Assembly (NCBI GenBank): GCA_963170055.1
Contig: CAUJGJ010000397.1
Span: 9,591,801 to 9,655,800, forward strand
Source: Halisarca cf. caerulea
Lineage: Eukaryota; Porifera; Demospongiae; Chondrillida; Halisarcidae
Length of the DNA: 64,000 nt
Reading direction: 5' to 3'
A model generated the notes under the pieces. It was not told the origin of the DNA and did no database searches. It saw only the letters and a program-made list of their open reading frames with translations. Of the stretch, positions 1,930 to 55,300 are shown in pieces; the first letter of the stretch is position 1, and the number at the start of each line of letters is the position of its first letter. The position numbers and the translations under genes are program-made.

Positions 1930-2120
1930 CCACTCGCTCTACCTCTAAAAATTGAAGGCCCACGGAAATTCTCAGAGCGAGTTGAATCTTCGTGGTTAAC
2001 TCTCAATCCAAATCTTTAGGTCACAAAGATTCTTCGTTGACAAAAACAGAAGCAAAGACACAAAATTCACTGAATAATACCAACGACTTCGACTACCGCC
2101 TAAAAGTCCGCCATGTTGTT

Positions 2121-2147
<27 letters not shown>
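1930..2147 (+). mobile_element. Left half of a hairpin-ended element, ending in (TA)n
   Basis: The end of this block (CCGCCATGTTGTTGACATAT then TA repeats) matches the centre of the two better-preserved hairpin elements at 41643 and 43343. Farther left the similarity is patchy, with a CTCGCTCT/AGAGCGAG inverted pair in place of their terminal stem, so this is a diverged subfamily. The right half is displaced to 11522-11620 by insertion of the 9.4-kb DUF7869 transposon into the TA core. Confidence 0.65.
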
Positions 2148-2154
<7 letters not shown>

Positions 2155-2429
2155 ACAGGCTCTGAGAAAAGGGCCCTTATGTGAGCAAAACTAGATTGCG
2201 ATTTTATTCGCTAAGATTAAAGGGCATGGACTAAGGATCAGAATGAAACTTGAACCGCAGCTATAGCTCTTTCCGTTCCTGTGATATTTAGTCTCGTTCC
2301 CAGACCCACACGTGCCGCGAAAGGTGGGTCTGGTGACAATAGGACGACTCGCTCGGCCCTATGACGTCATGAAGCTGATGATGTAGATTGCACTCTTTTG
2401 GCGGGAAAAGGCGTTGATTCGTGTTGTAA

Positions 2430-5400
2430 ATGGAAGGAGATAAAGTTGCTCCTCTTTGCTTTGTTTGCGGGAAGGATTTGCCACTGTCATCAGGACGAAG
2501 AACGTTGCATCCACCAATTTCACCAAACGAGGATGTTAGGACCTTCTTTTTGAATTTCATCATTGGTGCTAGCGGTCCGAACGTTTTTAGGATGAATGGT
2601 CCCGAATACGCGTGTAAACCGTGTTTCTCAAAGCTTGAGAGAGGAAGTAAGCAACATAAGGCAGCGCTTTCGCTGATAGGCGAACTTCGAAAAGTTGTAA
2701 GGATTGCTGGAAAGATTGCCATCGCTAACGATGATAACGCCAGTATTGTCTGTTTGTCGTGTTCTCCTTATGCTCTGGATAGCAATAACACTCGGAAAAG
2801 ATCTCAAGCTAATAAAGATGCTATAGTTTCCACTCCGAAGTGGCCCAATACCGTCCTTATACGTGAAGAACAGTATCAAGAGTCGAATGCAGATGGTTCT
2901 AGTGCATTGCCTATGACTGATCAAGAAAGCCAAACTGCTGCACTAATGGATGTCGGACTCTGTGAAACAACACCCACTGAAACATCAAGAAGCCGTGTGT
3001 TTTCAACACCAGGAAGTGAACTGAAGGTACACAGTGAACATCCTTGAAATTTGTATACGTAATATAATCTTGAAGATCTAATTCATAATATTGCATTTAT
3101 AGGTTGCCCATATTCGAAATGGCAAGACAGTGAAGACATACCATGTAAGGTTTTCGCCTTTCAAGAGAATTGGCAAGACACTTAGATACAAGAAAGCATC
3201 ATACACAGCACGTGCATGCCTATCAATACAAGCTGGCAAGTCGGAGGCATTGAGACAGATAGTTACAGCAGTGAAGATGGAGTGTAGATGTCTTTGTCAG
3301 TTGAAACCTAGGCCATCTGTTTTACGGGTGAAATCAGCAGATGAACTCAAATCTTTTAGCTGGAGACAATTAATGCTGGAATTGAGGCTGAAAGCCCCAA
3401 CATTTCTTACTATTTTACAAGCTGCAGGAGAGTGTCATCAACCAAGATTAAAGCGTCGCCAAAAGCCACGGAGTAGTGTTGTTGGTATGGCAGCTGCTAT
3501 CCTGCTGAAGTAAAGAAACCAGCACATGTGCAAGCCCCAAACAGTTCACAGTACTGTGCCGTACGCTGGGCGTGCTTCAAAAAAGGTACCACTGCATGTG
3601 CTATATGCATTAAGTAATTTAAATATGGCTATGCTTATTATATATATTACACAGGTATACACTCGTCTAAATAAGTGTGGAGTATCAATTACCCACAGGG
3701 CTGCAATACGAACCATACACAGCCTTGCAGATAACTATGATACTGATGTGCTGGCATGGAAGGATGCAGCTGAACCAGAACCCAACTACATACTTGTTGG
3801 TGACAATGTGGACAAAAATGTGTCACCACGTGATATGAGAATCAACAATCAGGTCAAGTCACTCCACTATTTTCACATGTATGCTGCACAGGATCGAATC
3901 ACTTTCACCCCTCAAAGTCATTCTCAAGCTGGCGATATTAGTTCTCTCCCAGCATCTGCAGTGCTATCAACTATTGGAGACTGTGTTGACATCCGGGAGA
4001 ATTACATTGTCTTGGCTGCAAGAACAATTGTTGATAGTCTTCCACACTTTGCTTTCCTGAAGAATTGCATTGCAGAGCACATCCCACATCAGTTCTCCAA
4101 AGAAACTGTCAAGAAGTCTGTGATCGTAAGTATTTCAGAATCTGCATAATATGTTTCATGCATGCAGATCTCTACAATGAATTAATCAAACTTGTATTAT
4201 TAATTTAATATGTGTACATAATCTAATGCAATAAATTGATAAATAAATTTATTTACATGCAGGTGCCGCTTGGAGTTATACCAAAAAATGAAAATGTTAA
4301 CGAGGAGATGTTGGAAATTTATGCAACAGTACATTCCGACAAATGAAGCAACACAGCAAGTACATACTGTTGCGTTTGGAGGTGACCAACTAACTGTTGA
4401 AAGATGCCGAGGTATTCAGAACACAAGGATTAATTCTGACGATGAGATCGATACCCTTCTTGGTCTTCATCCTTTTGCATCTGATTGGCACGCAGAAGTG
4501 ACGTTGCTTCGGGTATGTTAAAATTTTTATTGTACGAATAAAATAACACTACAATTTTAAATTCATTTTTTTCTCTATATCTATACATTGTCAAGGTCTT
4601 TTTCGAGCGGCTTTACCGTGGAGGCTCTAATTTGGATGGAGGAACCCTTTTACAGCTCCGTAATTTGTTAAATCGCCGAAATGTTTTGAAGGATGTCACT
4701 GGGCGCTTCAATGCAGCAATTGACTTTTTTGAACTTGTTGTCCACAGCCACATCATTGGTGCTGCACTTCATTTTTTTGGGATGTTGGGAAAGGAGGATT
4801 CTGCACATTTCAATGCACTACCTCCCAATTTGTCAACATGTCCAACAAGGGAGCAGTGGAAGGTATTCTCAGAGGCTGTAAGCTGTTTGATTGACCAATA
4901 TGTTATTGTGAAGAAGTTTGCAGACCTTCACCCAGAGGTTCAGATTCCTAGACCACTGATGTCTGTATTAGAGAAGACTTTGAGAAACAATTCACATGCC
5001 TTCCGCATTTCAATGGAGCATACATATGCACATGGATCATTTGAAAGGTGTGTTCCTCTTCCACGTAAACGTAGATTACCAACTTGGCTTCAGTCTTTGT
5101 CTGATCGGCCCCAGACTTCCCACGCAGTAATGCAGGTCACACCAGATGGTGTGTTCAATTACACGAGTGCTGTATTGAGTGACGGACTTCTGCTACTTGA
5201 ATTTCGTGATGCTATTCATGAGGGGGATGGCCAGAGGATATTACGCTGTTGGAAGTTCATGCTTTTATATTTCTTCTCTTCGGGCCACAAGAAATACGCT
5301 TTAGAGGCATTCAATTTACTGGCAGATGTGTATGCTGCTGAACCAAGGCTTGCTCACCAAATAATGTGGAGCCGAACTGTTAACACTCAAGGGCACCAAG

Positions 5401-5807
5401 GTCAAAATATACCTATTGATCTATATATGGAACATCTTAATCGCTGCCTGAAGGACAACATTATTGGCCTTGGAGCAAACGTGACTGAAGGTACTGTTGT
5501 GAATTGCTCAAAATCATTAAAGGGTATTCTTGATATATGTAACAATATAGATGCAGTTTGTGGAGTAATCCCCGAATCTATACATCACACTAGAAAGGGA
5601 TCCCAGATAGATCAGGACATGGTTTTGGCCGAGCTCACTACAAAATCACAGGTATTCGATTACATACCTGGCCGTCGTCAACACTCCACTCACACAACCT
5701 TGAATGTTGCGGACAGTATTGAAGCAAATAAGCTTTTTGAATGGGTTCACAAACACAAGATGAAGAGGATAAAGAAAGAACAATTACGTAACATTCTTCA
5801 AAAGTGA
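2430..5807 (+). pseudogene. DUF6589-family transposase, spliced, one nonsense codon
   Basis: The first exon starts at ATG 2430 and encodes paired cysteines (CFVC, CKPC, CLSC), a probable zinc-binding module. A GT-AG intron (about 3028-3101) leads to a basic exon. The DUF6589 signature follows at 3526-4149 (GDNVDKNVSPRDMR, SLHYFHMYAAQDR). Short introns interrupt it near 3585-3653, 4125-4262 and 4513-4596. The last exon (4597-5807) includes the C-terminal block WSRTVNTQGHQGQNIPIDLY and a basic tail. An in-frame TAA at 3511-3513, just before the RNQHMC segment, is the only clear break I see. DUF6589 is a domain name; its role as the Academ transposase is inferred from context. Confidence 0.75.
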
Positions 5808-5929
5808 ATCATGATTATGTTACTTCACACACAATAATTTTTACTGTTGGATCACAATACTTTATATAATTATTAATTGTTTTTAATACATACATGCAAC
5901 TATATCGATGTACTGTAAGTCTTGTTGTA

Positions 5930-7728
5930 TCAAAGAGAATGCTGTGATATTATGTCATAGAAAACATCTGCATGCTCGGCTGATGTAACACCAAATTTAA
6001 ACAAGTCGTCTTTACACGATACTGATTCACAGTTGTTGACAACTCTCTCAATGGTGTCATCTGCAATACCACTTGCTATTTTAATTCCTACAATAAGAGA
6101 TGCACTTGGCACTCTAGCTCTTTCACATAGTTGCCTTCTATATTCAAGTAATTGTGCTTTGACAGCAGACTGTTCTTTACTTTTCACACAACTCTCAAAT
6201 TCATCACATGCAGGTGCGTGGGTAAGTTCCTTAAAGTATACATATGAATTTGGAAGCTGGCAGGATTGACACAAGCAATTTAGTGCACATACATCACAGC
6301 ACATGCATTTTCTGCTGGGGTACTCGATACCACCTGCACTGTAAAAGTCTTCCATTAATAGACCTCGTCTACATGAAGATGTATTAATGCAGTAGGCTTT
6401 CATCAAGTCAGACACACCTGGTTTTCCTCGAAAATCAGTAGGTTGGTATAGGAGAATGGCTGTTGCAGGTCTGCCATTCCGACCACTACGACCAACTTCT
6501 TGGACATACGTTTCAAGATCAGCTGGAGGACCCCAATGTAAAACATGACGAATATCAGGAGAATCAAGTCCCATAGCAAAAGCAATTGTTACAAAAACTG
6601 ACCGGATTGTTCCCTCTACATCTGTGAAAGACCTAATGATATGATCTTTCATTTTCTCAGTAGTACAAGCATCATACTTCTCGCACGTTCTGCAATATGA
6701 TCGTGGGTGCACTTCTTCTGTTCCACATGGTGGAGAAATATACAGTGCTCTTCGACTATCTAACTGTAATACTGCTTCCTGGAAAAGTTCCATTGTCTCT
6801 TTGTATGTGCGACAAAAAAACAAGATGTTTCTCTGCGGAAATCCCATTCTTAGCAATTTCACTAACAATCGGTGTCACAACCTGTGAAATCTCACACTTG
6901 TGTTTTCTAACAACTGATAAAAATAGGTTGGGAACATTGGGCATTTTACAAATCCTTATAACCTCCTTCATTTCAAGACTTTTGATGATTTTTTGCTGGG
7001 TTGTCACATTTGCTGTAGCAGTCAAGGCCATGATATTTGTCCGACGAGGAAGAAGGGAACGAATTTCCCCTATATTAGAAAATTCTTGACGGAAGTTAAC
7101 ACCCCTATAGTTGTAGACAAAAGCACAGTAATACTCATTACAAGAAGAGATATGCACAAATGACTAAATATACGTACCACTTCTCAATACAGTGTGCTTC
7201 ATCCACAGCTAGACACACAAGGTTGCTTTGATAGATGTCACTTCGAAGCATCTCTCTCCATCTCAGATTCAGTAACATGGCTTCAGGGCTCAAGTAAACT
7301 AATTGATACCTACCATTCTGCACTTCTCACCACACAGATTCGTCTTTTTGTGCTTTTCCTATGAACGCTGGCAGGACTCCCTTTGCTGAATATTTCCTAA
7401 CTTGATCAACCATTATGGACTGAAGAGGAGAAACCACGATTACAATTGAGGAAAAATTTACCTCGCCCTTCAATGCGTCGAAAACGAAGGGTAATGCAGC
7501 ATAACAAAGCGATTTACCGCTTCCCGTAGGCAACATTACGAAAACATCTCTTCCAAGAACGAATTCCCAAATTGCAAGGGCTTGATTGTCAGTTGCTCTG
7601 CTGTATCCGAGCTTCTGTACTGTTTCCTCAATCGCTAAATCGATCTTTACCCCAGTAAAATAGGCATTTAACCTTGGTACGTAAAAATCCGACGCTTCTA
7701 CCTTGTTGGCGGCCATTTTCAACTCCAC
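5930..7728 (-). pseudogene. RecQ-like DNA helicase carried by the transposon
   Basis: Superfamily II helicase motifs appear in order on the minus strand: Walker A LPTGSGKSLCY, Ia VVSPLQSIMVDQV, DEAHCIEKW (Walker B/DEAH), MALTATAN (motif III), VFVTIAFAMGLDSPDIRHV (V) and QEVGRSGRNGRP (VI). A Cys-rich zinc module (CMCCDVC, CLCQSC) follows. A GT-AG intron lies after the DEAH exon (about 7110-7187). Breaks: an in-frame TGA at 7327-7329 between motifs Ia and II, and a frameshift near 6840-6868 before motif IV. In the intact element the helicase would presumably help replication or strand separation during transposition. It runs convergent to the transposase, so its promoter would lie at the right terminal repeat. 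Confidence 0.85.
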
Positions 7729-8330
7729 CTTAAGTACGTCACAGCTTTGCGGTTTCTTGCTGAATTATGATTGGCCATCCTAAATTCCAGATGGCAATGT
7801 CATAGGGCCGAGCGAGTCGTCCTATTGTCACCAGACCCACCTTTTGCGGCGTGTGTGGGTCTGGGAACGAGACTATGTGATATTATGACTTCAAAGTGCG
7901 CAATACTGTAAACGTTGATTTCGAGAAATCTGTGCCGAACATTTCACTTCCGGGTAAAACATGGAGTTCCGTACTCTGCCTCCGTATACTCGGCTGCGGG
8001 ACGGTAATCACATTGCTGCGCAAGCGTCGTAAAGAAAGAAAAGGCCACATATGAAGGACAAGAAGCTGTATTTACTGTGAAGGGCCACGCTAATACAAGA
8101 AACGGTACTTCCTGCTGAGGGCCGTGATCAATACAAGAAGAGGACGAGGTGAGTTATAGTTATCAAGTTAGCTTTACTAGCGCGTTTAGAACGCTGCTAC
8201 AAAACATTAGGTAGAACAAGGGTAAATACAACAACACCAAGCTGAAAAAGATGTGATTATAGTAATGTGAGCGTATGTAGACAGAGAGCAAAGTGTCTTG
8301 AAGAAATGGTTTGTACACAAAGTGAAGCAA

Positions 8331-11165
8331 CTACACTTTTTTCTTGCAGATTCGTCGTCGTTTAGGAGCAGCTACATCTTCAACGTAATTGTCCTCGAGA
8401 GCAGGAGTGCTTCGACCTGGCTTTGGAACAGATGGCAATGGACACGTTGTGTCTTTATCGTGATCAGGACAGAAAGGACGTATCTGTTCATACAAATACC
8501 ACTGACACTCTGCACTCAAGCCTCGTGGTGGTATTACGTCAGGCAAATTGTCCTTTTCAGGGGACCAGGGCTGTTTCAGCATGTTAACCTTCACCTCTGT
8601 GGTATTAGAGTGCTCTTTGATGAAAACAACCCCAGGTTGGGAAGAGGACATACGAAAATGATGAATCTTTTTGATTCCAGGGAGCTTTTTGAAGTGCGGT
8701 ACAAAGAAGGTCGTCCAGTCATACGTTGGAACTATTGTACTGCCATCTTCTCGAGAAACCAGCTGAGCAAAGTTGCACTCAGCTGATTTGTTAGCTACAT
8801 CTGCTATGGCTTTCAAGCTGCCAACTTTTGTTGTCTTGTAGAGTCGTTTTAAAAGCCCAAAACACCAATCGGGTGAAAATTTGGTATGGCCTACGACGAG
8901 AAAGGAAAGGGTGACATCAGTATGTCGTTCAGTGAGTGTACGCCACAAAAGATAGTGCAGCATAGCATTATTTTTGTTCTGGCCAGTACAGTTGTCAGCC
9001 GTCAGGTACACCTCTTTCTCACCCAAACTATGGTGGTCGAAAAAATAGTGCAGCGTACTGATCACAGCATTCGCCCCCTTTCCACAATCTCCGGCTTCAT
9101 CCGTGAGGAAGTTGATTTGACGAGGCATTGCCTCACAGTTTACTCCAAAGATGGTACATTTTCGAGGTGTGAGAAAATAAATAGGCCCAGGCTGAAGTGG
9201 ATCTGATGGGTAATGTACCTGCTGGGCGTAATCAAAGGAGTAGTGCACCTTGATCAAACTGACTGGTGCTACTGCTGACAATGGTGATGGTGGAGTGAAC
9301 TGACCATTGGTGGTGAAGTGCACTTTAACTGAAGCCTGACATTCATCACATGTCGTCTTATAGTGTGACCTTTCAAGGTGGACAACACGCAGATGTTCCT
9401 GTGCTTCCCTGATGACAAGTGTCTTCTCCTCCTCTGGACGATTTGCTGACCGAAGAATAGCTGCACTATTCTGATGACACTGCCAACAGAGATCTGACAT
9501 TGGCTTCATGATCACAACTGAAGGCAACCATGTCTTCCACAGCTTGCAAAAGGTGGAATAAGCAACCGTGTGGACAGTTTCATCCTCTTCAGCAGCTACA
9601 TGGTAGACTAGCCAGATGCCTCTCTTTGAAACACTTGATGGAAGAAGCTTTATGTCAGTACGACTATATCCTGGTACTCTTCCTGGCAAAAGCAAACCAT
9701 TCTGCTCTGTATAATTGAGGAGAAATCGTACAACATACTCGATGGACGAGAAAGAGAGGGCATGGTGAGGTTTCCTTTTGGTGTTGCCATGGATACGTGG
9801 TGTGAGGTCATGTGCTTTCAAGCTTTTCATCAAATTTTTGAGTCTTTTCTCACCTATAGTGTGCAGGATCCAGAACATCTTCACACATACCTGCTTGTCT
9901 TGGTAGTAATAAGAAACTCTGGGCCTCTCACGTTCTTGTGCAACATGCCTGGATGCAGTCACTACACCTGTACTGCTGTTGGTATGGGCGCGCAGCTAAC
10001 CTAAAATCACCATATCCAGCTCACTTCTAGTAAGCTCTGCGCAAGACTGCCTAGCTGACAGGATGTCTTCACGTGATAACTGTGTACAGCACTGTTTCCC
10101 ATCACCACCCTTTTTGCATCCACATCCAGCCATCACGAAGTCTGATACAGTTTTTTCCTCCTGAATGTCACTGGGAAGAGTCTCAAGGGGGATATCAAAT
10201 TCAACTTGTGCTGTCTGCATTGCCTCACGAACTCATTCTTCTGTGTCAACCAGCCCATCAAGATCATCCTCTTCATCCTCCTGCTCAGTATCACCACCCA
10301 CTTCAATATCACCAACACCACCGGACTCAAGCCCACCAATACCACTGGTCTCAAGACCATCCCTACCACCACTGACACCACTGAATTCAAGATCACCCCT
10401 ACCACCATCAACACCAGCGGACAGAAGACCACCACTATCACCACCAGACTCAAAACCATCCCTACCACCACCAACACTACCGGACTCAAGACCATCCCTA
10501 CCACCACTGGATTCAAGATCATCCCTACCACCAACAACACCACTGGACAGAAGACCACCACTATCACCACCAGACTCAAGACTATCCCTACCATCACCAA
10601 CACTACCGGACTCAAGACCATCCCTACCACCACCAACACCATTGGGTTCAAGATCATGCCTACCACCACCAACGGACTCGAGATCACCCCTACCACCACC
10701 AACACCACTGGACTCAAGATCACCACTACCACAACCGGACTCAAGACCACCACTGACACCACTGGATTCAAGACTACCACCAACACCAACACGTAACTCA
10801 AGACTACCTGGATTGCTGGGGACATCTGTAACATAGTTAGAAAATAACATTCAGTAATTGTATTTATTTAATATTATTTATTAATATTAATACATGTATT
10901 ATGAAATACTTAATTTTGCACAATACCAGCAGTGTACATTGGCTTAGAAATACGTATGTTTGAAAAAACCAAACACCATTGCATCACATGTACCTAAGTC
11001 AATTTCCATCTCTTCATCATCAGTGTTGTCTTCAGAATCATGTGCAGAAGAGCTAGGATAGCTAAAAAAATCCCCTATCACCTCCAGCATCCTTTCCTGG
11101 TCCTCAGAAGACAAGTGCATGATGGAGTTTATTGTTTTAGCAATTCCTCTGTTAGTGGCTGCCAT
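8331..11165 (-). pseudogene. DUF7869 transposase, copy 1 (two nonsense codons)
   Basis: Exon 1 (11165 to about 10985) is an acidic leader. Exon 2 (about 10830 down) begins with Gly/Leu/Glu/Ser repeats encoded by a minisatellite, then a GCGCKKG zinc-like segment and ELDMVILG. The main frame (9962-8331) has LLPGRVPGYSR, a Cys pair (CWQC, CDEC), HYSFDYAQQVHYP, LTADNCTGQNKNN and FLVVGHTKFSPDWCFG. These conserved Asp-bearing blocks look like an RNase H-fold DDE nuclease, which is inference. It ends in a basic nuclear-signal-like tail (KRRRICKKK). In-frame stops: TGA at about 10233-10235 and TAG at 9996-9998. Otherwise it is open. Confidence 0.8.
10240..10800. repeat. Coding minisatellite in transposase exon 2
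   Basis: Degenerate tandem units of roughly 21-45 bp built from ACCACCxxxACCACTGGACTCAAGA fill this stretch. On the minus strand in the transposase frame they encode Gly/Leu/Glu/Ser/Arg-Asp repeats (GGRDGLESG, GGLESSGV). All six frames stay open because the unit is poor in T, so the long Pro/Thr/Ser and Val-rich frames here are artefacts. Copies 2 and 3 of the transposase lack the expansion. Confidence 0.85.
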
Positions 11166-11521
11166 CCTGATCGTGTTATTCAGCTGTCAAGTGTGAAATT
11201 GTAAACTTGTAATGGTTGCTAGGTAACACAAACAATTGGAATGTTGTGGTTTCCGTTTACTATTCGTAAATTTTCGGCGTTACGGTAATCCGCTATACGG
11301 CGAAGAAGCGCGTGGACTGTAACGTTTCTAGGAGGCTGTTCGATGGAAAGGAAACTATGTAAGCGCACCAAATTTGGCATACAGGTAGGGGAAAGACCCT
11401 AGTTCACTATGATGTCATAAACTAAATTTGGTCTAAGTATGACGTGTTTGCGAATTTGTGGGTGTACTGAACAATACGCGTTTGCGCGATAAGGGCCCTT
11501 TTCTCAGAGCCTGTCACATAT

Positions 11522-14730: not shown

Positions 14731-15051
14731 GTGACCGTACTTGGGAAAAGGGGTACTTTGGTGGGTAGGCATATTTTGAGGTAAGCGCTAAAATAACAAA
14801 CTAGGTGTCAACTTTTCGAAAACTGTTTTTTCGTTTCATACATCTTAAAATAGTATTTTCTATCATTTTTGAAAGTTTCAGTGCGATTCGTTCCTTTTGC
14901 GCTAAGTTATGGCAATAATTATTCATGCTGCCATACTTTTGCTACGCCATTTTATCCGTATACGATCCTTTTGTGGTTGACACGTCATCATACGTTTAAC
15001 GCGCCAAAATTGTAACCACTCGCATGCACATTTATTGTAATTCGAGATTGC

Positions 15052-17044
15052 TTGAACATGGAAAAGGAAGCAGCCATCACGAGCCTTCTCAGAGGCTTCC
15101 AGCTGCAAGATCTTCATTCTGATGATAGAATTGGCATGCTAGATGTGTTTGATGACTACTTCACATCCAACAGCACAGGAGACAGTGAGGATTCTGATGA
15201 AGAGGAACCACACATAAGCACAGGTTGGTTTGACAACAAATCCTCAAATGTTCAACATCTGCCAAAGGTACAAGCATACAAAATAGCATTCATAGAGGTA
15301 CATACACTAAGATAGAATCAAAAACACTTACAATAAGGAATATAACATACAAAAGATAATACGTACAAAACAAGTGTTCTCAAAATTTAATGTTCAATGT
15401 GTTCCACCATAGACTTCACATCACACTCCACTGAATTGGAACCTGTGGAAGATATCATCCAAAAGCCAGTCATAGCCGAAGACAGTGACGATGATAATGG
15501 TGATACACAAGTGTTGCTTGCAAATTCAGATGAGGAAGTGCAGGAGGCTCTTGAACAATACAAAGAGAATTATAACATAGTGCCCGATAGAGTGGATGTT
15601 TCTGAGAATGCTGATGAAGACGATTCACAACAATTTCATACACAAGGGTGCACATGCTCTATAGCCGAAGGTAAACCCTGCTCTTCCCTATTTTCTGTGG
15701 AGTATTTAACATCCAGCTGACTGTGTAGCATGGATCTAACAAGAAAAGAGCTTGATTTGGTAATATTAGGAAGTTTGAGCGCTTGCAGTGATACCACCAA
15801 ATACACAGCATCATCAAAAGGACACCATAAAGTAAAAGAACGCAAGAGAGGATACACACAATTCATGCACTCGGGCAAACGTGTGTGTAAAACCACTTTT
15901 TGCTACTTACATGGGATAGGGAAGAAGAGGCTAGCACATCTTGTAAAACACTACATACAAAATGGCATAACTCCCAGGGAGCAAGGAAATTCCCGCAAAA
16001 CACCATCCAATACGCTCTCATTCAAATCAGTGGAGTACATCCTGTGCTTCCTGCACTCTCTGGTTGACCAACAAGGCATCCTGCTACCAGGACGAGTCCC
16101 GGGGTACAAAAGAGATGACTTAAAGTTGTTGCCATCCTCTCTCTCTAAGAAAGAGATATGGAGAAAATACTGTGAGTCAATGGCTACCATGCAAGGAGAG
16201 GTAAAACAGGTGTACTACATTACATTCTGTCACCTGTGGAAAGAATTGACTCCACAGATTGTAGTTATGAAACCTATGACTGACCTGTGCTGGACTTGTC
16301 AAAAAAACAATGCTGCAGTAATTAAAGCTAGCAATAGATGCGAAGACCAGAAGTCCTCAGCACTACAAGTAGCAACTAGGCACATAGAATTGGCAGAGCA
16401 AGAGCGAACCAGGTACAACATTATCTGTAAGCTATGCAAAGAATCAGTTCTCTCTGCTTTTCTCATGGCCCACCCCCACCTTTCTGTAACAACCAGCCTT
16501 GTTCTGTGGATGCAGCAGTCCACTACTCTTTTGACATGGCCCAGCAAGTACATTACCCTTCTGATCCACTACAACCTGGCCCTATATACTTCCTCACCCC
16601 CAGGAAGTGCAATGTGTTTGGTGTATGCTGTGAGGGAATCCCCCGACAGGTGTTCTATTTAACTGATGAGGCAGCTGATTGTGGTAAAGAGGCAAACAGT
16701 ATTATCAGCCGAATACATCATTTCTTCTCCCACCATGGTCTTGGTGAGAAGAATGTATACCTTAATGCTGACAATTGTCGCAGTCAAAACAAGTAATTCG
16801 AGTTAAAAACTCGTGGGGGCTGCCGCCCCACGCACTCGAATCACTTGCAAAGCATTGGAGTGTAAGTGCACAGCTGAACATTCATTGAACATACTGTTTA
16901 TTGTAACTGGACGATTGTTTTGAAAACAATTGCCATATTTGGCAATTGTTTTCAAAACAATTCCTGTAACTCATTCCTGTATAAATTCATACTTCTCTAT
17001 TACTATTATATAAATTCTCTATTATAAGACTTTTCTTCAAATCC

Positions 17045-17083
<39 letters not shown>

Positions 17084-17689
17084 GACGAGCGTTACACACC
17101 GGAAGTCCAAATAAAAACAATATAGGGGCTGCCTGCGGCAGCCCCTAACAAGAACAACATAATGCTCCAATACTTGATGTGGCGGATAATGACAGGACTA
17201 CATTCAACCATCACACTACACTTTCTTGTTGCTGGTCACACAAAATTCTCACCTGATTGGTGCTTTGGGCTTTTTAAGCATCTTTACAGGAAAACCCTGG
17301 TGGGCTCACTAAAGGACATTTGCGATGTTGTCAACAATTCTGCTGTTTGCAATGTAGCCCAGCCGGTTTCAGAACAAGATGGAACCATCATTGTACCAAC
17401 GCACGACTGGCAGCAGTTCTTGAACCATCACTTTCGCAAGTTGAAGAATGTCAGCACATATCACCACTTCAGATTTTCTTCCAGCGACCCAGGAGTTGTT
17501 TTCTTGAAGCAATACGATGACTCAGCGGAAGAACGCGTTCCTTTGCTCAAAGGCAACTGGCAGCCCGACAACGATTTTCCCGAAGTAATTCAGCCGGCAG
17601 GACTCCGTCTAGAGCGCCAAAGCTATCTCTACGAGCGGATTAGAGAATTTTGCCCAGAGGAGAGAAGAGACAACAGCACTCCGAAATAA
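15052..17689 (+). pseudogene. DUF7869 transposase, copy 2
   Basis: Exon 1 (15052 to about 15222) encodes an acidic leader (EDSDEEE) like that of copy 1. Exon 2 has an acidic region and GCTCSIAEGKPC, then an in-frame TGA (15718-15720). The main frame carries ELDLVILG, CYLHGIGKKRLAHL, LLPGRVPGYKRDD, the Cys pairs CWTC and CKLC, HYSFDMAQQVHYP, LNADNCRSQNKNN and FLVAGHTKFSPDWCFG. A frameshift lies at about 16450-16500. A hairpin element (16790-17148) cuts the frame exactly inside QNK-NN; removing it restores the frame, so that insertion came late. The stop is at 17687-17689. Confidence 0.85.
16790..17148 (-). mobile_element. Hairpin-ended non-autonomous element, family 2
   Basis: The ends are CAAGTAATTCGAG and a GC-rich stem (GGGGCTGCC...GGCAGCCCC) followed by TAA. 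Each end forms its own hairpin, and the middle holds an inverted repeat (GTTTTGAAAACAATTGCC) and a (TA)n tract. The empty site can be read from the interrupted transposase ORF. All added bases belong to the element, so there is no target duplication, or at most 2 bp. A microsatellite core, terminal hairpins and no duplication resemble Helentron-derived elements (HINE/DINE-1 type). Other copies: 44744-45415 and 54040-54384. Confidence 0.75.
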
Positions 17690-18114
17690 CAGTGAACATA
17701 TTTTCCATAGCTAGCTTTAAAGACTCAATTAGAAGTTTAAATTCTAACTTTTTCCGTTTGTATCCTCTGTCAAGCTCAAAAGTCATTGCAGAATGAACGT
17801 TTCTCCTACCCGCACACTGTCTCGGTTCTGATGGAAGGACATTGCACAACTTTGTTACATCACTATTATGATGTAATCACTTTACCGTATACGATTGTTA
17901 TACTATTTAGCGGAAGTAAAGCTAAAACGTACCGCCATGCATAACTACAAGTTTACGTGAAATCGGTATTTTTTGCATATAACTTCCGACAGGAAACTCG
18001 TATGAAGCCGCCGTTATCACCTCGTTATAGAGCGTTGAGAGTGCGTTCGAATGATACCAAAAGCGCATTTTCGATGAAACCCACCAAAGTACCCCTTTTC
18101 CCAAGTACGGTCAC

Positions 18115-43640: not shown

Positions 43641-44743
43641 AAAAGTGAGCATCTTTTAAGTTGCCACATTGAACGAACTTTTGATAATCTGAGACTATGC
43701 TGGTGATGGTACGTAATTCACATGGCTGTCTGCTACCAGGGCCATGCTGCATGGAATTCCGATCAATTGTGCACCACAGGCAACAGTGCCGACCTATATA
43801 AAAAAGGATGTACCAACTTTCCACTGACCACGTGTGTGTATATTAGTGGAATTTTAATTGCATAAATGATTCAAACAGATCACATGCACCTGTCTAACCT
43901 GAAGCTCCTGAAAGTCCATGTATACATGTCAGAAGTTGATAATCTCCATACATGAACAGTCGTATTGTCTTTCCCCTGTGGGTGCATGGGTGCATGCATA
44001 GTATATATGCATGCATGCATACATAATACATCAGAGTATATATTATAGGAATCATTATAATATATTGGAAACACTTTTTAAAACTTATTCTGCATGCAAT
44101 CAATATATAGGTTTTTCAATAAATTGCATGTATTGATAGTTTCTGTTGTTGTATTACTACACCCATGCATGCAGGTTATAACTGAGCTTAGTCATGTCAC
44201 TGCATGCAGGTATTCTCACTTCCAGGTCTTGCCCTGTATCTCATTAATCTCAGCTTTATATCTCTCCAAGGTCACACATAAATTTGTCAAGCTGTCAGGT
44301 GCTTCAAAGAGACAAAACACCCATGTATTTTCGGGAGAATTTGGAGATTCTACATTCACTATCTGAAAAGACATTTTGAAGCTTGAACCTCCTTTATCAC
44401 CTCCGATTTTGATCCAGATTTCGTTTTCAGGTATGTTATTTGACACCTTACCAAGCTGAATTTGAGGATTATGCTGCAGAGCTTGTTGCTAAGCTGTCTG
44501 AAGCTTGGTCACTAGCACATGAGAGCATCAAACAGGCTCAACACCTACAGAAGTTACAATATGACAAGAAGATCAAAGAGCCCAATTATACCGTTGGACG
44601 TGTTATGGTGCACCATCCTGGGAATGTTTGTGGAGAAGCATGGAAATTGGCTCCGCCTTATTTTGGGCCATATGAGATTCTTGCATTAACGCCAACCAAT
44701 GCAGAGGTTAAGCCACTGCAACCCCTTGGTGCCAAGTCTATTT

Positions 44744-44808
44744 TTAGGGGCTGCCTGTGGCAGCCCCTATATTGTTTTCATTTGGACTTCCGGTGTGTAA
44801 CGCTCGTC

Positions 44809-44845
<37 letters not shown>

Positions 44846-45415
44846 GGATTTGAAGAAAAGTCTTATAATAGAGAATTTATATAATAGTAATAGAGAAGTA
44901 TGAATTTATACAGGAAGGAGTTAGAGGAATTGTTTTGAAAACAATTGTCAAATATGGCAATTGTTTTCTATTATGTTCACTGATATAGCTTCAGAAATGA
45001 TTTCAGAATGGCAATGCAAAGTACACACAGCTTAAATACTCACAGGTGTGGATAAAATACGTAAGGCCTAATAAGGAAAGGTTACAAAGAAATCAACACC
45101 AAAATAGCTACTACGCAAGATAACACAAAACTTATAATTAGAACAACGCTACATCAACAAAAGGTGAATTAAAGAAACATCTCATAACATGGATAACAAT
45201 ACACGATTACCAGAGGTGAATTGCAACAACACAACATCCTGCATTTCCATACACATCAACAGTCACCACATACACCACATTTTCAAAACAATCGTTCAGT
45301 TACAATAAACAGTATGTTCTATGAATGTTCAGCTGTGCACTTACACTCCAATGCTTTACAAGTGATTCGAGTGCGTGGGGCGGCAGCCCCCACGAGTTTT
45401 TAACTCGAATTACTT
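44744..45415 (+). mobile_element. Hairpin-ended element, family 2, with inner insertion
   Basis: It has the same ends as 16790-17148 in the opposite orientation (TTAGGGGCTGCC ... CGAATTACTTG). It is longer than the other copies because about 305 bp (44970-45278) was added inside the central inverted repeat, bordered by TTTTC on both sides. The integrase frame continues across the element (AKSIF then VALDRL), giving an empty-site reading that again shows no duplication beyond at most TT. Confidence 0.78.
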
Positions 45416-46969: not shown

Positions 46970-48867
46970 AGGGGCGCGGTGACACGTTTACGGAGATTAC
47001 GGAACAAAATGGCTGCCTAACTGGTGCCTAACTCGCTGGATAAAATGCAATTCACTAGAATGGTTTCGCGTTCTATCCAGTATTAGACACAGCGTACACT
47101 ACAGAATACATACTAGTATAAACTAATACAAATGAATAAGAATGCACACTGTTGCTATCTTGTACGTGATTTACACATTGCGCGCGAATTTTTTCTGTCC
47201 ATTGCCACTTCATTCGCTAATTCTGAGTCTCCTAGCGATAGCGACAGCGATGGCCTACAACTACCACTGTATGGCTTTGGTGTCATTTTTGTGCCGAGAA
47301 GCGAAAGATTTGTTTAGCGATGGAACCCTTGCCGCCGAAGAAAGCTTGCTTGACCATAAGACTCGATAGCCAGGATGAACATGCGAAGATAGTCGCTTTA
47401 TTGGACAAGATAGCAACGAGGATGGGCCAGAATGCTTCGCGAAGAGATGCTCTGTGGAGTCTTCTCGAACAAACAGAGACTGGTTGTGACCCGTTTGCTA
47501 GAAACGAAGGTTTGTATGTATGTACTCATTGCACTTCCATAATATTATATGTAGCCATACACCATGCACTTTGAATTTTCCCCTACTCTACATGTAGGTC
47601 TGAGCAAACAGATATGTCCTCCGAATGCAAATTCCTTCCAACAAATGTTTGTCGGAGAAGTGCAGCAGGTGACATCTTTGGTGACTGAATGCCAACGTCG
47701 TTGCACATGTGGGTCCCTTCACTGGACAGTCTCCAACGAGAGTATTCAAGGACATGTGCTGTGTTTTACACTGACTTGCTCTGGATGCAAATTTTCTCGG
47801 AGGTGGTTGAGCTCCAGCATCATGGGGACCAAGTACACCGTGAATGCACGGTACAGTATGCATGTCCAGTACATAAGAGCTTGGTGTTACGCCTGATTTT
47901 TTTGCAGGATGGTTCATGGTTTCACATCGTCGGGTTTGCTTGCACAACAGTACCGTTACTTTTGTGATGCTGCAGGGATTGGGAGACTCAGCCCTTTTTA
48001 TATCAGAGAGAGTCGGTATTCATATCACTGCATTTGGCTGTTGTCCTACCTTGGTATCATGCTTCTATTTTGTAAACGCAGTGTACAACAAGCACAACTA
48101 CCTCAACACCATACGACAGGTAGCAAAGGACAGCATGCAACAGAGCATATTCAAAGCTCTGGATGCTCAGCCTGAAGATGATAACAGAGTAAGCATGTTT
48201 GTCCACTAGCCTCAGGGTTAGTACGTATAACATGTATTTGTCAAGTCTCTTTCACTTCTCAGTGGGTAATGACTGATGCACGCCATGACTCGTGTGTGAA
48301 TGCTTTCCACACAACAGTTCCATGCATATCTGGGATCACCCACAAAGTGTTGGGGGTCAAGACGTTATCTAGGTTTGAACACAGCACTGCTCAAACCAGG
48401 GAAGTAGTAGCTACAATGGAAGTAATTGAGGATGTCATAAGTAGAGGTGAGTGTACTACCTGTGTATATTCCATACTTGTACATGCAACACCCCACTATA
48501 CACTGCATGTGTACTTTATCACTGAAGGGTTTCCTATCCAAGAGGTTGCCCATGACAGCAATGTTGCCTTGACAAAGAAGATCACAGAGAGAGGGTTAAT
48601 CAACAGCTATGACACTTGGCATGGTACGTGCTTTGGCTTTGTATTTGAATGTACGTACTACTATCTTGACCCTCTTTGCTTCAGGGACTAAGGGCGTAGC
48701 AAAGGCTATGAAGCCCATAGCTTGTGGAAGGGTTAGGGACAAGGGCAAAGTGTGGTTTCCAGAGCTGTCAGATAAACGTAAGTCTACATATTACATCTGG
48801 TTATTGTATATATATAGAGATCACCTTTGCTGAATTTGTGTGTAGGAGCAAGTACAAAAAGGCATGT

Positions 48868-51722
48868 GTGAGCGCATCAAGTAAAAATGGAAGCTTAGGC
48901 ACGTTGCGTTATTTTTCAAAATTCGCGCTTGAAAATGGCCAATTTTGACCCTGGATTGTAGTGTCATACACGGCGAGTCCATGAAGGGGTAAACCCTGAA
49001 ATTTGGAGGTAGGTTGGACCCAGTGTTAACTTGCCGTAGCGAAGTTTTGGCGGCTTTTTAGTATACCGATGAGGTACAGTGGTCTCTGGACTTTTGCCGT
49101 GTTTTCAGCGATTTTTTTTCTTATTATGGCATTGATGCAGACAGAAAGTGGATCAATAGTAGATACATGTGATCCGAATTGGCTCGGAGTTGGTAGAGAA
49201 CGCGATGAAGATGTTAGTGCGGGCTTGTACACTTTGAACGAGCAAGAGTCGTCCTTGGGAGAGATGTCTTCAAGCGATTATAATACTTCTAGTTCTGCGG
49301 AAGAATCCAGTATAGAATCTACCCGTACTCCTTTGCGAAAGAAGAAAAAGCTTGAATGTTCAAAGCGTTATTTGGAAGGAAATGCACGCAAGCCGTATCA
49401 TCAGTCTTACACAACAACGTCTGATTCAACATCTCTGGAAGGATCCTTCTTACAGTCGTCTGCAGATGAGTTCCCACAGTCTACTTCTGCTACTTCAGTT
49501 ACCAACAGGCCAGATGTGTGTAACAGCTGTGCTCCTGTATTAGAAAAGTACACTAGCACATTCAAGAATATACTAAGGCAGGGAAGTGAGCTCAAAAGTA
49601 GAAAGAAGGTAAACCCCAATCCCCGTAAACCAAACTTCCAACACTATAGAGACCTAGTAAAGCAGAATGAGTGGTTACGTAATAATATTTTTGACCCCAT
49701 GGGAAACTATCTGTTTTGCAGTCGCTGTGTGCATGGAGCACTTGGAGTAGCCTACCAACGTCTTTCTCGACTTAGAAACATCAAGAAAGCGCAATTCAGC
49801 AACCCAGTTCAATTGATGACCAAATGTGCTGTAGAGGAAGCAAAGTTGGGTGATTCAGTCATTATGCCTAATGACTGCAACCAGTCCTTTGTACAGTGGT
49901 GGAAATCTCTTGATCCAGACTCACAAGTATCAGTACGTTATCCCTATCAGAAACATGGGCTCTCAGGGAAATCTTCTAATCGTGCAAAACACTCAGTAAA
50001 GGAGGCCTTCCTTCGTTTTGTTGACATGAACAGTCAACCAAATGGAAGACAAGAAGACAGTTCGAGTGCTACCCACTTTTTCCTACCTAAATTCAAAACC
50101 ATTCAAACTCCTAAGGCAGGCGTTCATCATTTTCAGGAACGGTTAGAGGAATCAGTCGTAGGAATATTCAATCAATTACAGGTAGAAGCTGGAGAAGCAA
50201 CTTGCTCGAACGGGAGTGCTTCTACATGGCTGCGGGCGGAAAGACCTAAGCTCAAAATCTATCCTCATCAAGCTGATTTTTGTGACACTTGTGCTCGGCT
50301 AAAACAGGAACTTAATGGAGTACAAACATCACTAAAAAGGAAAAGACAAAGTGGATCAGCTACTGAGAGTGAGCAAAAGCAACTTGAACAAAGTATTAGT
50401 AAATTAGAGGAAACGCTGACTGTTCACAAGGCACATGCTAATAACGCTCGTGAGTACTACAACAAAATGGTTACCAGATGCCAAGAACAGTGGAAAGAAG
50501 TCCATTTGTCAGCAGATTCTTTAACATCATCTACTGGAATGAATATAAGTGAGTTGCAGCACACCTTCACGTTAACACTCAGTGCTGATTACCAAATGTC
50601 TAAATTAGTACCTTATTGGGGGCATTCTCCACAGCCCGGTAGTACCTACTACCTGCAGAAGTTGTCCAATGATTTATTTGGAATTGTTGACCACAAGGAC
50701 AACACATCACAAGTCTATGTTTTTGATGAAACCATTGGCCCTAAAAATGCTGACCACACATTCTCGTATCTTATTCATTACATCAAGGAATCAGGAAATG
50801 TTCCACCATGGGTACGTCGTGTGCACATATTTCTTGACAATGCTGGGAGTACAAACAAGAATTGTTATTTTATGTCAGCTGCTATGGAGCTTGTTCAGCA
50901 AAAAGTCCTTGACTATATCCGAGTGTCCTTCATGGTAGCTGGGCATACAAAGTTTGCCCCAGATAGATTGTTTGCCAAGGTAGCCAAGACATACTTACGC
51001 AGTGATGTTTTCACAACCCAAGAACTTGCTGCTGTAGTTTCTGAGTATGCAACTGTGATTGTGGATGATGGTAGCCTTGTTCGAACATGGAGGGACATAG
51101 TTGGGGAGAAATATACAAAGCTCCCTGGAATACGCTCACTTCATGATTTTTTGATAGTCAGACATCCTGTATCTGCTGATGCAATCATGAAAGTCAGAGA
51201 ACACTGCTTTAAGGATTCCTTTCAGGAAACAACAATGAAACTTGTTAAAGGTCGTACAGCTGCTGAGAGAGCCATGCCATCAATTGATGATACATACAAG
51301 AAAAGAGGAAAAGTTGGACAAATATCTAGCGTGAAAACTCATCATCTGCAACAAATGTACTCAAGTTATGTACCTGTTGAACGTCACCCTAATCAATAAC
51401 GTATACAATGTCATGTATTTAATTTGCTGTATTTGTAGCATTCTTAGTGTTTTCTTTGTTGTTTTAGTTTTTGTTGGATTGCAACTAGACCAGTTTACAC
51501 CATACCTATAGTTTGAGTACTATTAAGGTGCATCACCTCCTCTTCCATTTGTATTTGATGCTAAAGAGGGGTGATTTGATTGTGGAATAATTATTGTTAT
51601 TAATGTGATTGGAATATGAAATTTGACCACAAGATAGCTGGATGGTAGATGCATCCAATAGCACTAAAAAGGGATTTTGTCCTAAGTGTTCCTAAGCTTC
51701 CATTTTTACTTGATGCACTCAC
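48868..51722 (+). mobile_element. DUF7869 DNA transposon, copy 3 (intact ORF)
   Basis: The element is 2855 bp. The ends are GTGAGCGCATCAAGTAAAAA and its counterpart with one mismatch over about 32 bp (48868-48899; 51691-51722). It is flanked by ATGT (48864-48867, 51723-51726). Removing the element and one ATGT restores a readable exon (STKRHVYWAMKN), so the 4-bp duplication is well supported here, unlike at the two AT-rich sites. It carries one intronless ORF, has no internal insertion, and its repeats are nearly identical, which suggests recent movement. Confidence 0.93.
49069..51399 (+). CDS. DUF7869 transposase, copy 3, uninterrupted 776 codons
   Basis: The frame has no stop over 2.3 kb. 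N-terminal: Ser/Glu-rich region, basic patch (RKKKKLEC), then a Cys pair (CNSC) and a second zinc-like region (FCSRCVHG). Middle: YPHQADFCDTCARLKQEL followed by a charged coiled coil (about residues 410-470). The putative catalytic core has LSADYQMSKLVPYWG, RVHIFLDNAGSTNKNCYF and FMVAGHTKFAPDRLF, the positions of HYSFDYAQQ, TADNCTGQNKNN and GHTKFSPDWCFG in copies 1 and 2. Met at 49129 may be the true start, since the first 20 residues are hydrophobic and atypical. RNase H-fold DDE chemistry is inferred. Confidence 0.85.
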   Translation: MRYSGLWTFAVFSAIFFLIMALMQTESGSIVDTCDPNWLGVGRERDEDVSAGLYTLNEQESSLGEMSSSDYNTSSSAEESSIESTRTPLRKKKKLECSKRYLEGNARKPYHQSYTTTSDSTSLEGSFLQSSADEFPQSTSATSVTNRPDVCNSCAPVLEKYTSTFKNILRQGSELKSRKKVNPNPRKPNFQHYRDLVKQNEWLRNNIFDPMGNYLFCSRCVHGALGVAYQRLSRLRNIKKAQFSNPVQLMTKCAVEEAKLGDSVIMPNDCNQSFVQWWKSLDPDSQVSVRYPYQKHGLSGKSSNRAKHSVKEAFLRFVDMNSQPNGRQEDSSSATHFFLPKFKTIQTPKAGVHHFQERLEESVVGIFNQLQVEAGEATCSNGSASTWLRAERPKLKIYPHQADFCDTCARLKQELNGVQTSLKRKRQSGSATESEQKQLEQSISKLEETLTVHKAHANNAREYYNKMVTRCQEQWKEVHLSADSLTSSTGMNISELQHTFTLTLSADYQMSKLVPYWGHSPQPGSTYYLQKLSNDLFGIVDHKDNTSQVYVFDETIGPKNADHTFSYLIHYIKESGNVPPWVRRVHIFLDNAGSTNKNCYFMSAAMELVQQKVLDYIRVSFMVAGHTKFAPDRLFAKVAKTYLRSDVFTTQELAAVVSEYATVIVDDGSLVRTWRDIVGEKYTKLPGIRSLHDFLIVRHPVSADAIMKVREHCFKDSFQETTMKLVKGRTAAERAMPSIDDTYKKRGKVGQISSVKTHHLQQMYSSYVPVERHPNQ

Positions 51723-52349
51723 ATGTATATTGGGCCATGAAGAATTGCGATGGGGACCCAGAAGTACTGAGGCGACTTATCACTAATATTGTTGCTCATT
51801 ACAAGGTTTGTACAAAATTTTTATTCTACAGAAAGAACACACTGTAAAAACGGATGGATTGTTTCAACCATCAGTGGTTAAATCAACCACTATAAGAGCA
51901 GGTTGTTATAACATTACTGAAGTTAAAACACCCAGGCATAGTAGTTGGTTGGAATAACCCATAAAATGTCAAATCAACCAGCAAATGTAGTAGTGAATTT
52001 AGCCAGCCTGTGGTTACATTGACAACCATGTAGTGGTATTAACAATCTGCAGGTTATTATAACCATTAAATAGATTGAAAATATAAGTTGATAGGTTGAT
52101 TTGACACAAGCAATGCACATGCATGGTGTGCATAGAGTTTGGTTCCTTCTAAACAATGCACATTGCACACACATTGTGGGTCATGTATACATTACATGAG
52201 ATTCATTCTGGTGCCTGGATAATACTGCACAACATGTCTAATCTGACAGCTCTCAAATCCAACAAACGCTAAACCCATGGGGCAATATTGAATGTTACGC
52301 GTGCTGTCACACATGCATGCACCATTTCAATACAAGATCACCTGCATAA

Positions 52350-55300
52350 TTATTTATAAATATACATGCAATAATTCAGTAGAACTGAATTGTAATATAG
52401 ATAAATAATGCATTCCTGCCACAGATTGCTAAAGAAACTTCTAATGCACATTAATTCAATAATTGCAAAATGCATACTTGGGTACAATACACAAAGTATT
52501 GTTTTTTTAATACGATGACAATGATAAACTGAATGATCTACAATGCGACTATATGGCATAATAATCTGATTAGGAAAGAGTTCAATGAAATACGCCTGAT
52601 AATGTGAATCAAAAATGGCTGAACATGGAGACAAAATCAATACAATAGTTGAAGCTCCTAATAAGTAAATTTCATCAACTCTCCCAAAAGTAGGGTCATT
52701 GTCACTAAATTCTGACACTACAAAACAGTCTTTTCACTTTTAGTGTGGTTCCATTAGTTTTCATCCACTTCAGTTTAAATACCGTGGTCTCCACACTGAT
52801 GTTTGGCAATAGTGAAATAATTGCGGTCTTTCGGGACTCTGATTCTGACATGAGTACATTTGGATTTGGACCAGGACCAAATTCGGATTCAGAAACTACA
52901 ATACCAGAGGAGGCATTTTCATAACAGGCCCAGCGCTGCTGGCGGTGTGCCAACGTGAGGGCAATATTCTTGAAGTTCCCTATATGAGCAGCCTGTTTGA
53001 AAAAATGTTATTTTGCTTCGTAAAGCATTGTCCAAGAACAAACTAATGGTGACAAACTTAACATCAAATCAGGGTAGTGACACATGTAATGCATTTTGGG
53101 TATAATTGTTTCGTTGGGATATACATCCTGGAACAGTGTATGGTGTTCTTCGACAAGAACTTGCAAAACTGCACACAAATCTGTACTGACGATAGGACTC
53201 AAGCATATCTGAACAATTTTTAAAAGGAGCAAGTAACATTGCCAATGCGAGTTATCCTCTTCAACAAATTCACCGACAAGCAATGGTAAAATTCGACATA
53301 GGAGAGCACACTGAGATGCATTCTGTCTCAAATGTTTGTCATTTGCCTGGAGATTTCTATGGGTTATTGATGTTGGTTTGTTGGAAGCTTCTGAATACCC
53401 ATAGTCAAAATTTATTAGCAACTGATTCGAATGCTCCAAATTCACTGTCTGATTATTGATTATATGCTGGAGTAGCAGTTTTAATTCATACTGCACTACG
53501 CCTTTGAACAAATCGTGCAAATATCATGTGGTAGGCCACCATTGAACATGTTGTAAGCAGTAACATCAAGCAGTACAGATGGGTGTGTGACTCCATATGC
53601 AGTAGAATAATGCTCCCGCAAAGGACCACATAATTGTGAACACTGTTGCCTATGATTGGCATTTGTTCGCATCTCAAAATGTCGTGAATTGAAACAAGTT
53701 GACGCCTTTTCGGAAGTTGCCATACAAGTGCGGCAAATTCGGAGGGCACGAGATACAGACATTTTAAACCCTCCCACCTCATGCAGGGCGAGTGTGTCCC
53801 CTAAAAAGGCTAAAAGAGCACCCTTGAAATTGTGATTAACACCATTTACCAATACATCAATTCCAGAAGACGACAGAGCATTCAATTCATCAACAAAAGG
53901 TCACAAGATTTCATCAATGCCATGCTTTTGAATAACTGGGGCAGTGGCAATTGAAACTAAGTTGATTGCTTGCAAACGAGATCGGTGCTTTGGATGTATG
54001 TTTCCCAGTACGAAAAACACCACACCAACTTTGTGCTTTTTAGGGGCTGCCGCAGGCAGCCCCTATATTGTTTTCATTTGGACTTCTGGTGTGTAACGCT
54101 CGTCCGATATATATATATATATATAATATGGATTTGAAGAAAAGTCTTATAATAGAGAATTTATATAATAGTAATAGAGAAGTATGAATTTATACAGGAA
54201 TGAGTTATAGGAATTGTTTTGAAAACAATTGCCAAATATGGCAATTGTTTTCAAAACAATCGTCCAGTTACAATAAACAGTATGTTCAATGACTGTTCAG
54301 CTGTGCACTTACACTCCAATGCTTTGCAAGTGATTCGAGTGCGTGGGGCGGCAGCCCCCACGAGTTTTTAACTCGAATTACTTGTTTACATAATACACAA
54401 CTCCAACTCATCGTAATAAGCTAAAATTTGAAGTGCACATGGATGATTCTGAAATATCTCGTGGTTATGAAATAAAAGCCCATCGCAATAATCCTCCAAG
54501 TGACCATCTGACCTAATTCTTTCTTATGTACCCAATACCATTACCATTATATTTCTGTCAGCCAGCATCAGCTTCAAAGATGAAAAGAGGGAAACATACT
54601 GGAAACTATCCTGGACTTGTACTGCTTGCCTTTTGTGCCCTGTAAACCTCAGCGAGTAGTATGGACTCAGTTGGCTCCTACAATAGATTAATACATAAAG
54701 GTGAGCCATGCATACAGTAACTATAATGAGCATGCAGCTGAAAACTCACAATCAAGCCTAATTTTTTAACAAAGTATTGTTCTTGTTGATAGCGGGTGAT
54801 CAATCCATCAAAAGGGTCAATCATGCTCTTAAACACTGTTTCCAAGCCATGTACTTGTACACCTTCCTCAGCCAGCTTATCTTCTACACCTGCCTGAATA
54901 TGCTCAATGCTCTGAGCAAAAAGTAACTGAGAGCTTTCTACAATGTCATCAATGGTAGTTTGAATTAAGCATCTTTTCTCCTTAAGCTTTAAAAGAAATA
55001 GAGCACTTGATCTCTGTTGAGTTTCAGCATCTACCGCAATGAGCTGCTGGAAAGCTGGACGGCCTTGAAAATCACAAAAATTGAATGTCATTGAAGGATT
55101 ATGTTCAGAACGGAATAATATTAGAGATTCTTACTGAAAGTGTATAGTCCTACAATTAGACACAGCCACATGTTTGTTCATATCTGTCTATTTTCATTAC
55201 ACAAAGAGCCATTCACTGGGGTCTACGAGTGCAACTATCACTGAAACACAACTTATTGACGTTAATACTTACTTGCTATTTCTGGAATATCCGATAGCCC

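Follow-up and report, generated by a model that had tools for sequence, protein, structure and literature searches.

A recently mobile DUF7869 element of the sponge Halisarca cf. caerulea, very probably encoding a DDD transposase and most likely of the Sola lineage

The 64,000 nucleotides of Halisarca cf. caerulea DNA analysed here (contig CAUJGJ010000397.1, positions 9,591,801 to 9,655,800, hereafter called the window) contain at 48868-51722 an open reading frame (ORF) with the domain DUF7869, enclosed by inverted repeats. This raises the question whether proteins with this domain are transposases and to which superfamily their elements belong. The element at this locus, hereafter called e3, is very probably a complete and recently mobile cut-and-paste transposon, with DUF7869 as its DDD transposase and Sola as its most likely lineage. 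The initial annotation reported a DUF7869 ORF between inverted repeats starting with GTGAC or GTGAG at three loci of the window, here called e1, e2 and e3 (Table 1); the coordinates are exact, and the domain scores above the Pfam cut-off of 26 bits in 3/3 (68.2 bits for e3, 61.8 and 37.1 bits for the other two).

The limits of e3 are exact. Its ends are GTGAGCGCATCAAGTAAAAATGGAAGCTTAGG and GTGAGTGCATCAAGTAAAAATGGAAGCTTAGG, both starting with GTGAG, and 35 of 43 columns match in the terminal inverted repeat (TIR). ATGT is present in direct orientation on both sides and, as this word is not self-complementary, the flanks are a direct duplication and not an extended inverted repeat. Besides the 776-amino-acid frame, only ORFs overlapping it reach 100 amino acids. 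Removal of e3 and one ATGT, followed by joining of the flanks, restores a host exon, as had been claimed: the frame ASTKRHVYWAMKNCDGDPEVLRRLITNIVAHYK is open, and the peptide has 23 matches in the same genome, 21 of which span all 33 residues and the junction without a stop and represent uninterrupted paralogues. The interrupted gene (window 48560-48780 and 51727-51806) is a member of a multicopy family. A second copy of e3, the left part of which is hidden by an adjoining run of N, is 99.9 % identical over 1460 bp, stops at the terminal base of e3 and is followed by ATGT and then by unrelated DNA. The element is real, well delimited and recently mobile.

Two AlphaFold models show the order of RNase H elements seen in DDE enzymes, and the structure check proposed for 49069-51399 accordingly gave a predicted RNase H fold. 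The residues D507, D590 and D632 were assigned as the putative catalytic triad from the model together with an alignment, in which the acids are conserved. A D..D..(H/D) core had been suggested; a three-acid RNase H core is indeed predicted, with the Asp of GHTKFxPD as the third acid, i.e. DDD and not D-D-H, the conserved His standing beside it. The N-terminal part of the e3 protein has conserved Cys and His residues and a long helix. No match at E ≤ 0.001 was obtained with Foldseek for the e3 model against the PDB, where the first rows were unrelated, the NCBIfam search gave no useful match, and nuclease and helicase domains were not found in a domain scan of the e3 protein. Retroviral integrases and the mariner element Mos1 share only the fold with it (about 10 % identity) and differ in ends, targets and accessory domains; a likeness in fold does not amount to membership. 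Among the closest named relatives of the e1 protein are proteins of two sponges, Halichondria panicea and Dysidea avara, and of the snail Gigantopelta aegis.

The TIRs of e1 and e2 match in 32/40 and 36/45 columns, respectively. The flanks of e2 are ATAT/ATAT, and the left flank of e1 is an AT run, which leaves its duplication length ambiguous. The three elements had been described as unrelated by descent, which did not hold: the e1 and e2 proteins are 44 % identical over 213 residues, and profiles of the e1 and e3 types align over 467 columns (E 1e-76, 19 % identity). The DUF7869 elements combine what is expected of a cut-and-paste DDE/D transposon, namely TIRs around the transposase gene (3/3 in the window), a duplication of fixed length and, in the e1 and e3 types, a predicted RNase H triad.

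The ends and flanks were then compared across the genome (194 Mb, 454 contigs), in which at least 169 DUF7869 matches, counted by stretch, were found and 150 of 222 candidates were scored. Thirty loci with the match mainly in one frame (single-exon) were fetched; they were picked largely by a long open frame, which biases the sample to intact copies. Ends were sought by a blind inverted-repeat search, an earlier seed search and reading of the ends. In the blind search 19/30 loci scored 19-22 of 22, the best shuffles (five, one flank each) reaching 16-19. Two of these 19 were not element-end pairs, the right end being cut in L048 and another repeat at the locus edge being picked up in L066, and the ends of L045 were found with the seed search only, its blind score not exceeding that of its shuffles. 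Searches and reading together gave both ends in 18/30 loci, and those of L066 were added with the learned end motif, so that both ends are known in 19/30, one end in 1/30 (L048) and none in 10/30 (L043, L059, L061, L062, L064, L067, L068, L069, L070 and L074). L059, L062, L067 and L070 appear to be partial copies, as they share 1.8-2.7 kb with end-defined elements at 95.7-98.3 % identity; L059 retains one end. No convincing ends were found in the loci L009-L038, the stretches of about 3.3 kb being too short for both.

The proposed check of termini and duplications at further loci thus came out in favour of a defined element type. Ends of the form GTGR are present in 17 of the 19 two-ended loci, the deviants being L049 (GGGT at both ends) and L057 (GTAR). 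Identical 4-bp flanks surround 21/22 elements (the 19 loci and the three of the window), the exception being L065 (AAAT/ATAT). The 21 pairs comprise ATAT (17) and one each of AATT, ATGT, CTAT and AGTT; an ATRT preference, as first formulated, therefore covers the predominant ATAT and the observed ATGT, and is too narrow for the other three. For the end alignment, 46 ends of 23 elements (21 from this genome, without L066, and two bacterial ones described below) were anchored manually beside the 4-bp flank. G occupies position 1 in 46 of the 46 ends, T position 2 in 44, G position 3 in 44 and A or G position 4 in 44; further inside, A is found at positions 16, 17, 18 and 19 in 41, 38, 46 and 45 ends. 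These elements are related and are not independent events, yet protein identity between the lineages is only about 19 %. Recent movement is also seen elsewhere, L047 and L071 being 98.0 % identical over 3108 bp and diverging 1 bp beyond the ends, with different flanks, and other families having copy pairs of 95.7-98.3 % identity.

Since ATAT reads the same on both strands, a pair of equal ATAT flanks is little proof by itself. The duplication is fixed at 4 bp by three exact empty sites, those of e3, L046 and L058. L046 is inserted in a satellite array of 104-bp units, and its flanks joined with one ATAT match neighbouring units without gaps in 237/239 positions. L058 is flanked by CTAT, and uninterrupted copies of its host repeat in the window align ungapped at the junction, with gaps elsewhere, mainly in the AT run. 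The empty site of L042 is clear, with a duplication length left ambiguous by an AT run. Among 14 identical-flank insertions outside AT runs, a pyrimidine precedes the duplication in 13 and a purine follows it in 14; the corresponding rates around the 388 ATAT words that the window has outside AT runs are 51 % and 55 %. This makes the target a palindromic YATATR. A preference for AT microsatellites was considered and found unconvincing (6/21 insertions in or beside AT runs, 90/481 ATAT words of the window).

Three DUF7869 loci (L039, L040 and L041) were found when bacterial and archaeal genomes were scanned. The elements in L039 and L040 are complete, measuring 2880 and 2466 bp, and have GTGA ends, internal AAAA and open frames of 725 and 714 amino acids. 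Contamination with animal DNA was dropped as an explanation, as the neighbours look bacterial: a PDDEXK_2 gene adjoins the element in L040, and that in L039 is accompanied by a nucleotidyltransferase-like ORF (weak similarity to DUF6036 and to AbiEii, both below the cut-off) and a DnaA_C-type ORF. Proteins similar to that of L040 number 105, including entries named as metagenome-assembled genomes of Desulfobacterales, the PVC group, Mycoplasma and Bacteroidetes. For 39 of the first 53 entries listed the longest contig is 2.2-2.9 kb, about one element, which fits repeated insertion sequences, weakly, as a frame of 700 amino acids needs more than 2.1 kb anyway. A tree was built from 68 proteins by a quick method and drawn with a midpoint root; L049 has a long branch in it. 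One starred clade (100) of this tree is formed by the 20 rows grouping with L039 and L040 and lies beside 23 e3-type rows; 18 of the 20 are labelled bacterial from similarity alone. P0252 is unplaced between this clade and the e3 type, and the e1 type forms the other deep branch. Matches were found in 1/395 genomes of the phylum of L039 and 1/198 of that of L040, the source genome each time, and the elements are therefore rare or patchy in both phyla. No relative was found in viral contigs with the profile A1, the e1 protein or the L040 protein, and plasmids and phages gave no match to the L040 protein.

The L039 element (430-3309) has a second small ORF at 528-920 on the minus strand (DUF6788, 60 bits), and L040 is without such a frame. 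L041 (contig PEAL01000026.1, 30 kb, titled Deltaproteobacteria) is a DUF7869 fragment of about 175 amino acids between MBOAT and carbamoyltransferase genes, and part of the MBOAT gene is repeated nearby.

Sola and Zator were reportedly described by Bao et al. in 2009, in what is said to be the founding Sola paper. In the excerpts available of later accounts, Sola elements have a DDD transposase, 4-bp duplications and mostly a size of 2-9 kb, and occur in bacteria and metazoa (PMC10741241), and Sola2 duplications are AT-rich and of the form AWWT, e.g. ATAT, AAAT or ATTT (PMC3627910). The DUF7869 elements resemble Sola, by these published descriptors, in the predicted DDD triad, the 4-bp duplications, the size and the presence in bacteria and metazoa, and Sola2 in the target, 18/21 identical flanks being AWWT and ATGT, CTAT and AGTT lying outside it. 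On the basis of these descriptions they are judged more probably than otherwise to be members of Sola, closest in target to Sola2. The distinct superfamily proposed in the initial annotation is hence the less likely reading, an existing one fitting by description. TIRs of dictyostelid Sola2 elements are 12-21 bp long, compared with 18-48 columns (80 %-identity stretch) here.

Several observations fit this picture less well. Sola ends are described as very variable in the excerpts of PMC10741241, whereas GTGR and AAAA are rather constant here. The flanks of the bacterial elements are unequal (L039 ATAT/AGAT, L040 ATTT/ATAT), and, with contigs of only 3.7 and 4.9 kb, assembly joins are conceivable. 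Lastly, GTGR-type ends are absent from 4/4 stretches of 10 kb around multi-exon DUF7869 loci (L052-L055). Concerning the bacterial flanks, two extra bases at one end (AG on the right of L039, TT on the left of L040; n = 2) would give ATAT/ATAT.

The constancy of the ends across lineages about 19 % identical in protein speaks for a rival reading, in which the elements would be a separate undescribed superfamily outside Sola, another DDD group that uses AT-rich targets of 4 bp and extends over bacteria and animals. No mention of DUF7869 was found in the open literature searched, and the Pfam copy used still gives its function as unknown, which is in keeping with such a group. The Sola descriptors nevertheless fit, including AWWT in most flanks (excerpts of PMC10741241 and PMC3627910), and a separate superfamily is regarded as rather unlikely. 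The fuller version, in which the bacterial members would be an unlisted insertion-sequence family and the multi-exon lineage would have been freed from the element, by domestication or as a different element type, is considered doubtful as a whole. In the open literature searched, DUF7869 itself seems not to have been named as a transposase, whether or not the elements are listed under Sola.

The multi-exon lineage has many matches in the same genome (L009-L031 and others, L052-L055). It carries the motif MDNCxRENKN in the three frames read, and its scores for the first half of the Pfam model go up to 120.6 bits. A single inverted repeat of another sort, with 24 matches, is present in L052 and is partly a dispersed repeat, and a comparison of duplicated multi-exon loci gave no common ends. 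Elements of greater length, elements of a different kind, domesticated copies and host genes are all conceivable identities for these loci. As ends are lacking in all four, the claim that DUF7869 proteins are cut-and-paste transposases stands for the e1 and e3 types and their bacterial relatives and does not extend to every DUF7869 protein.

The gene-like appearance of this lineage, together with the further frames of at least 100 amino acids outside the main one in 11/22 elements (mostly short), might suggest that DUF7869 ORFs are passengers or domesticated genes and that another enzyme mobilises the elements. In e3 and 10 others, however, DUF7869 is the sole frame of this length, overlaps aside, and the protein agrees with DDE enzymes in its predicted fold and acids, which makes the passenger explanation very improbable. 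The assignment of e1- and e3-type DUF7869 as a DDD transposase is well supported by element anatomy and by the predicted fold.

Membership of Academ, piggyBac or Zator was also considered and is extremely improbable. AcademX duplications are 3-4 bp in the excerpts of PMC10045372, but an element-encoded nuclease, as in AcademX, is lacking in e3, the protein of which has neither a nuclease nor a helicase domain. The TTAA target of piggyBac is found in 0/22 flanks. ISAzo13 (PF07592), the bacterial kin of Zator, shows weak similarity over the DDE region (5e-6 for L040, 6.8e-5 for P0026), and part of the L040-type relatives carry both DUF7869 and ISAzo13 Pfam labels, suggesting a possible link to the bacterial kin of Zator. 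The matches are, however, below the cut-off (L040 26.2 bits, cut-off 26.9), e3 is unmatched up to E 1, and Zator and ISAzo13 duplications are 3 bp (excerpts of PMC10045372), in contrast to the 4 bp with exact empty sites here.

The DUF7869 protein, probably as a dimer on the palindromic YATATR, would recognise the GTGR ends with their subterminal AAAA, the N-terminal region with Cys/His and the long helix probably serving in end binding and dimerisation. The predicted RNase H-fold domain with its three Asp would cut both ends, and the 3' ends would be joined to the target with a 4-bp stagger, the repair of which would give the 4-bp duplication.

Table 1 Features of the DUF7869 elements in the window
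Feature	Coordinates	Strand	Remarks
e3 left target duplication copy	48864..48867	.	ATGT, 4 bp
e3 left terminal inverted repeat	48868..48899	+	GTGAG start; AAAA at end positions 16-19
e3 transposase ORF	49069..51399	+	776 aa, single exon; DUF7869 at aa 529-712
D507 codon	50587..50589	+	Predicted first catalytic Asp, strand 1
D590 codon	50836..50838	+	Predicted second catalytic Asp, end of strand 4, motif LDN
D632 codon	50962..50964	+	Predicted third catalytic Asp, start of last core helix, motif GHTKFxPD
e3 right terminal inverted repeat	51691..51722	-	31/32 bases equal to left repeat
e3 right target duplication copy	51723..51726	.	ATGT, 4 bp
e1, DUF7869 element	2152-11517	-	GTGAC ends; nested transposon inside
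e1 DUF7869 ORF	8331..9962	-	543 aa, open part of gene
e1 predicted triad			D243, D322, D364 (numbered in 542-aa translation)
e2, DUF7869 element	14731-18114	+	GTGAC ends, ATAT flanks; gene broken
Repeat copy within e2	16868..17157	.	Other window copies 44741-44968, 54031-54306; reference for the empty sites of L042 and L058

The e2 gene is interrupted by a repeat at about 16868-17157. This repeat, with its other two copies in the window, contains a palindrome, GGGGCTGCC...GGCAGCCCC, and an AT run. DUF7869 elements have inserted into it in L042 and L058, and one end of L037 adjoins it. The nested element in e1 (2289-7875) has inverted repeats matching in 75/80 columns and an exact 9-bp duplication, TGTGATATT, and encodes a DUF6589 protein together with a helicase C-terminal domain, which is accompanied by a weak match to the RecQ zinc domain. 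With its helicase domain and 9-bp duplication it resembles AcademH, for which target duplications of 9 or 10 bp are given in the excerpts of PMC10045372, and it is a passenger insertion in e1, separate from the DUF7869 element.

The novelty of these elements is modest, as a described superfamily probably covers them. Since these ends also occur in bacterial elements, an exchange between bacterial insertion sequences and animal transposons, or a shared ancestry of the two, is indicated. The rather constant ends and the 4-bp ATAT duplications are diagnostic for tracing further elements and possible non-coding derivatives, and DUF7869 is given a testable function, so that multicopy DUF7869 proteins in genome annotations become recognisable as transposon genes.
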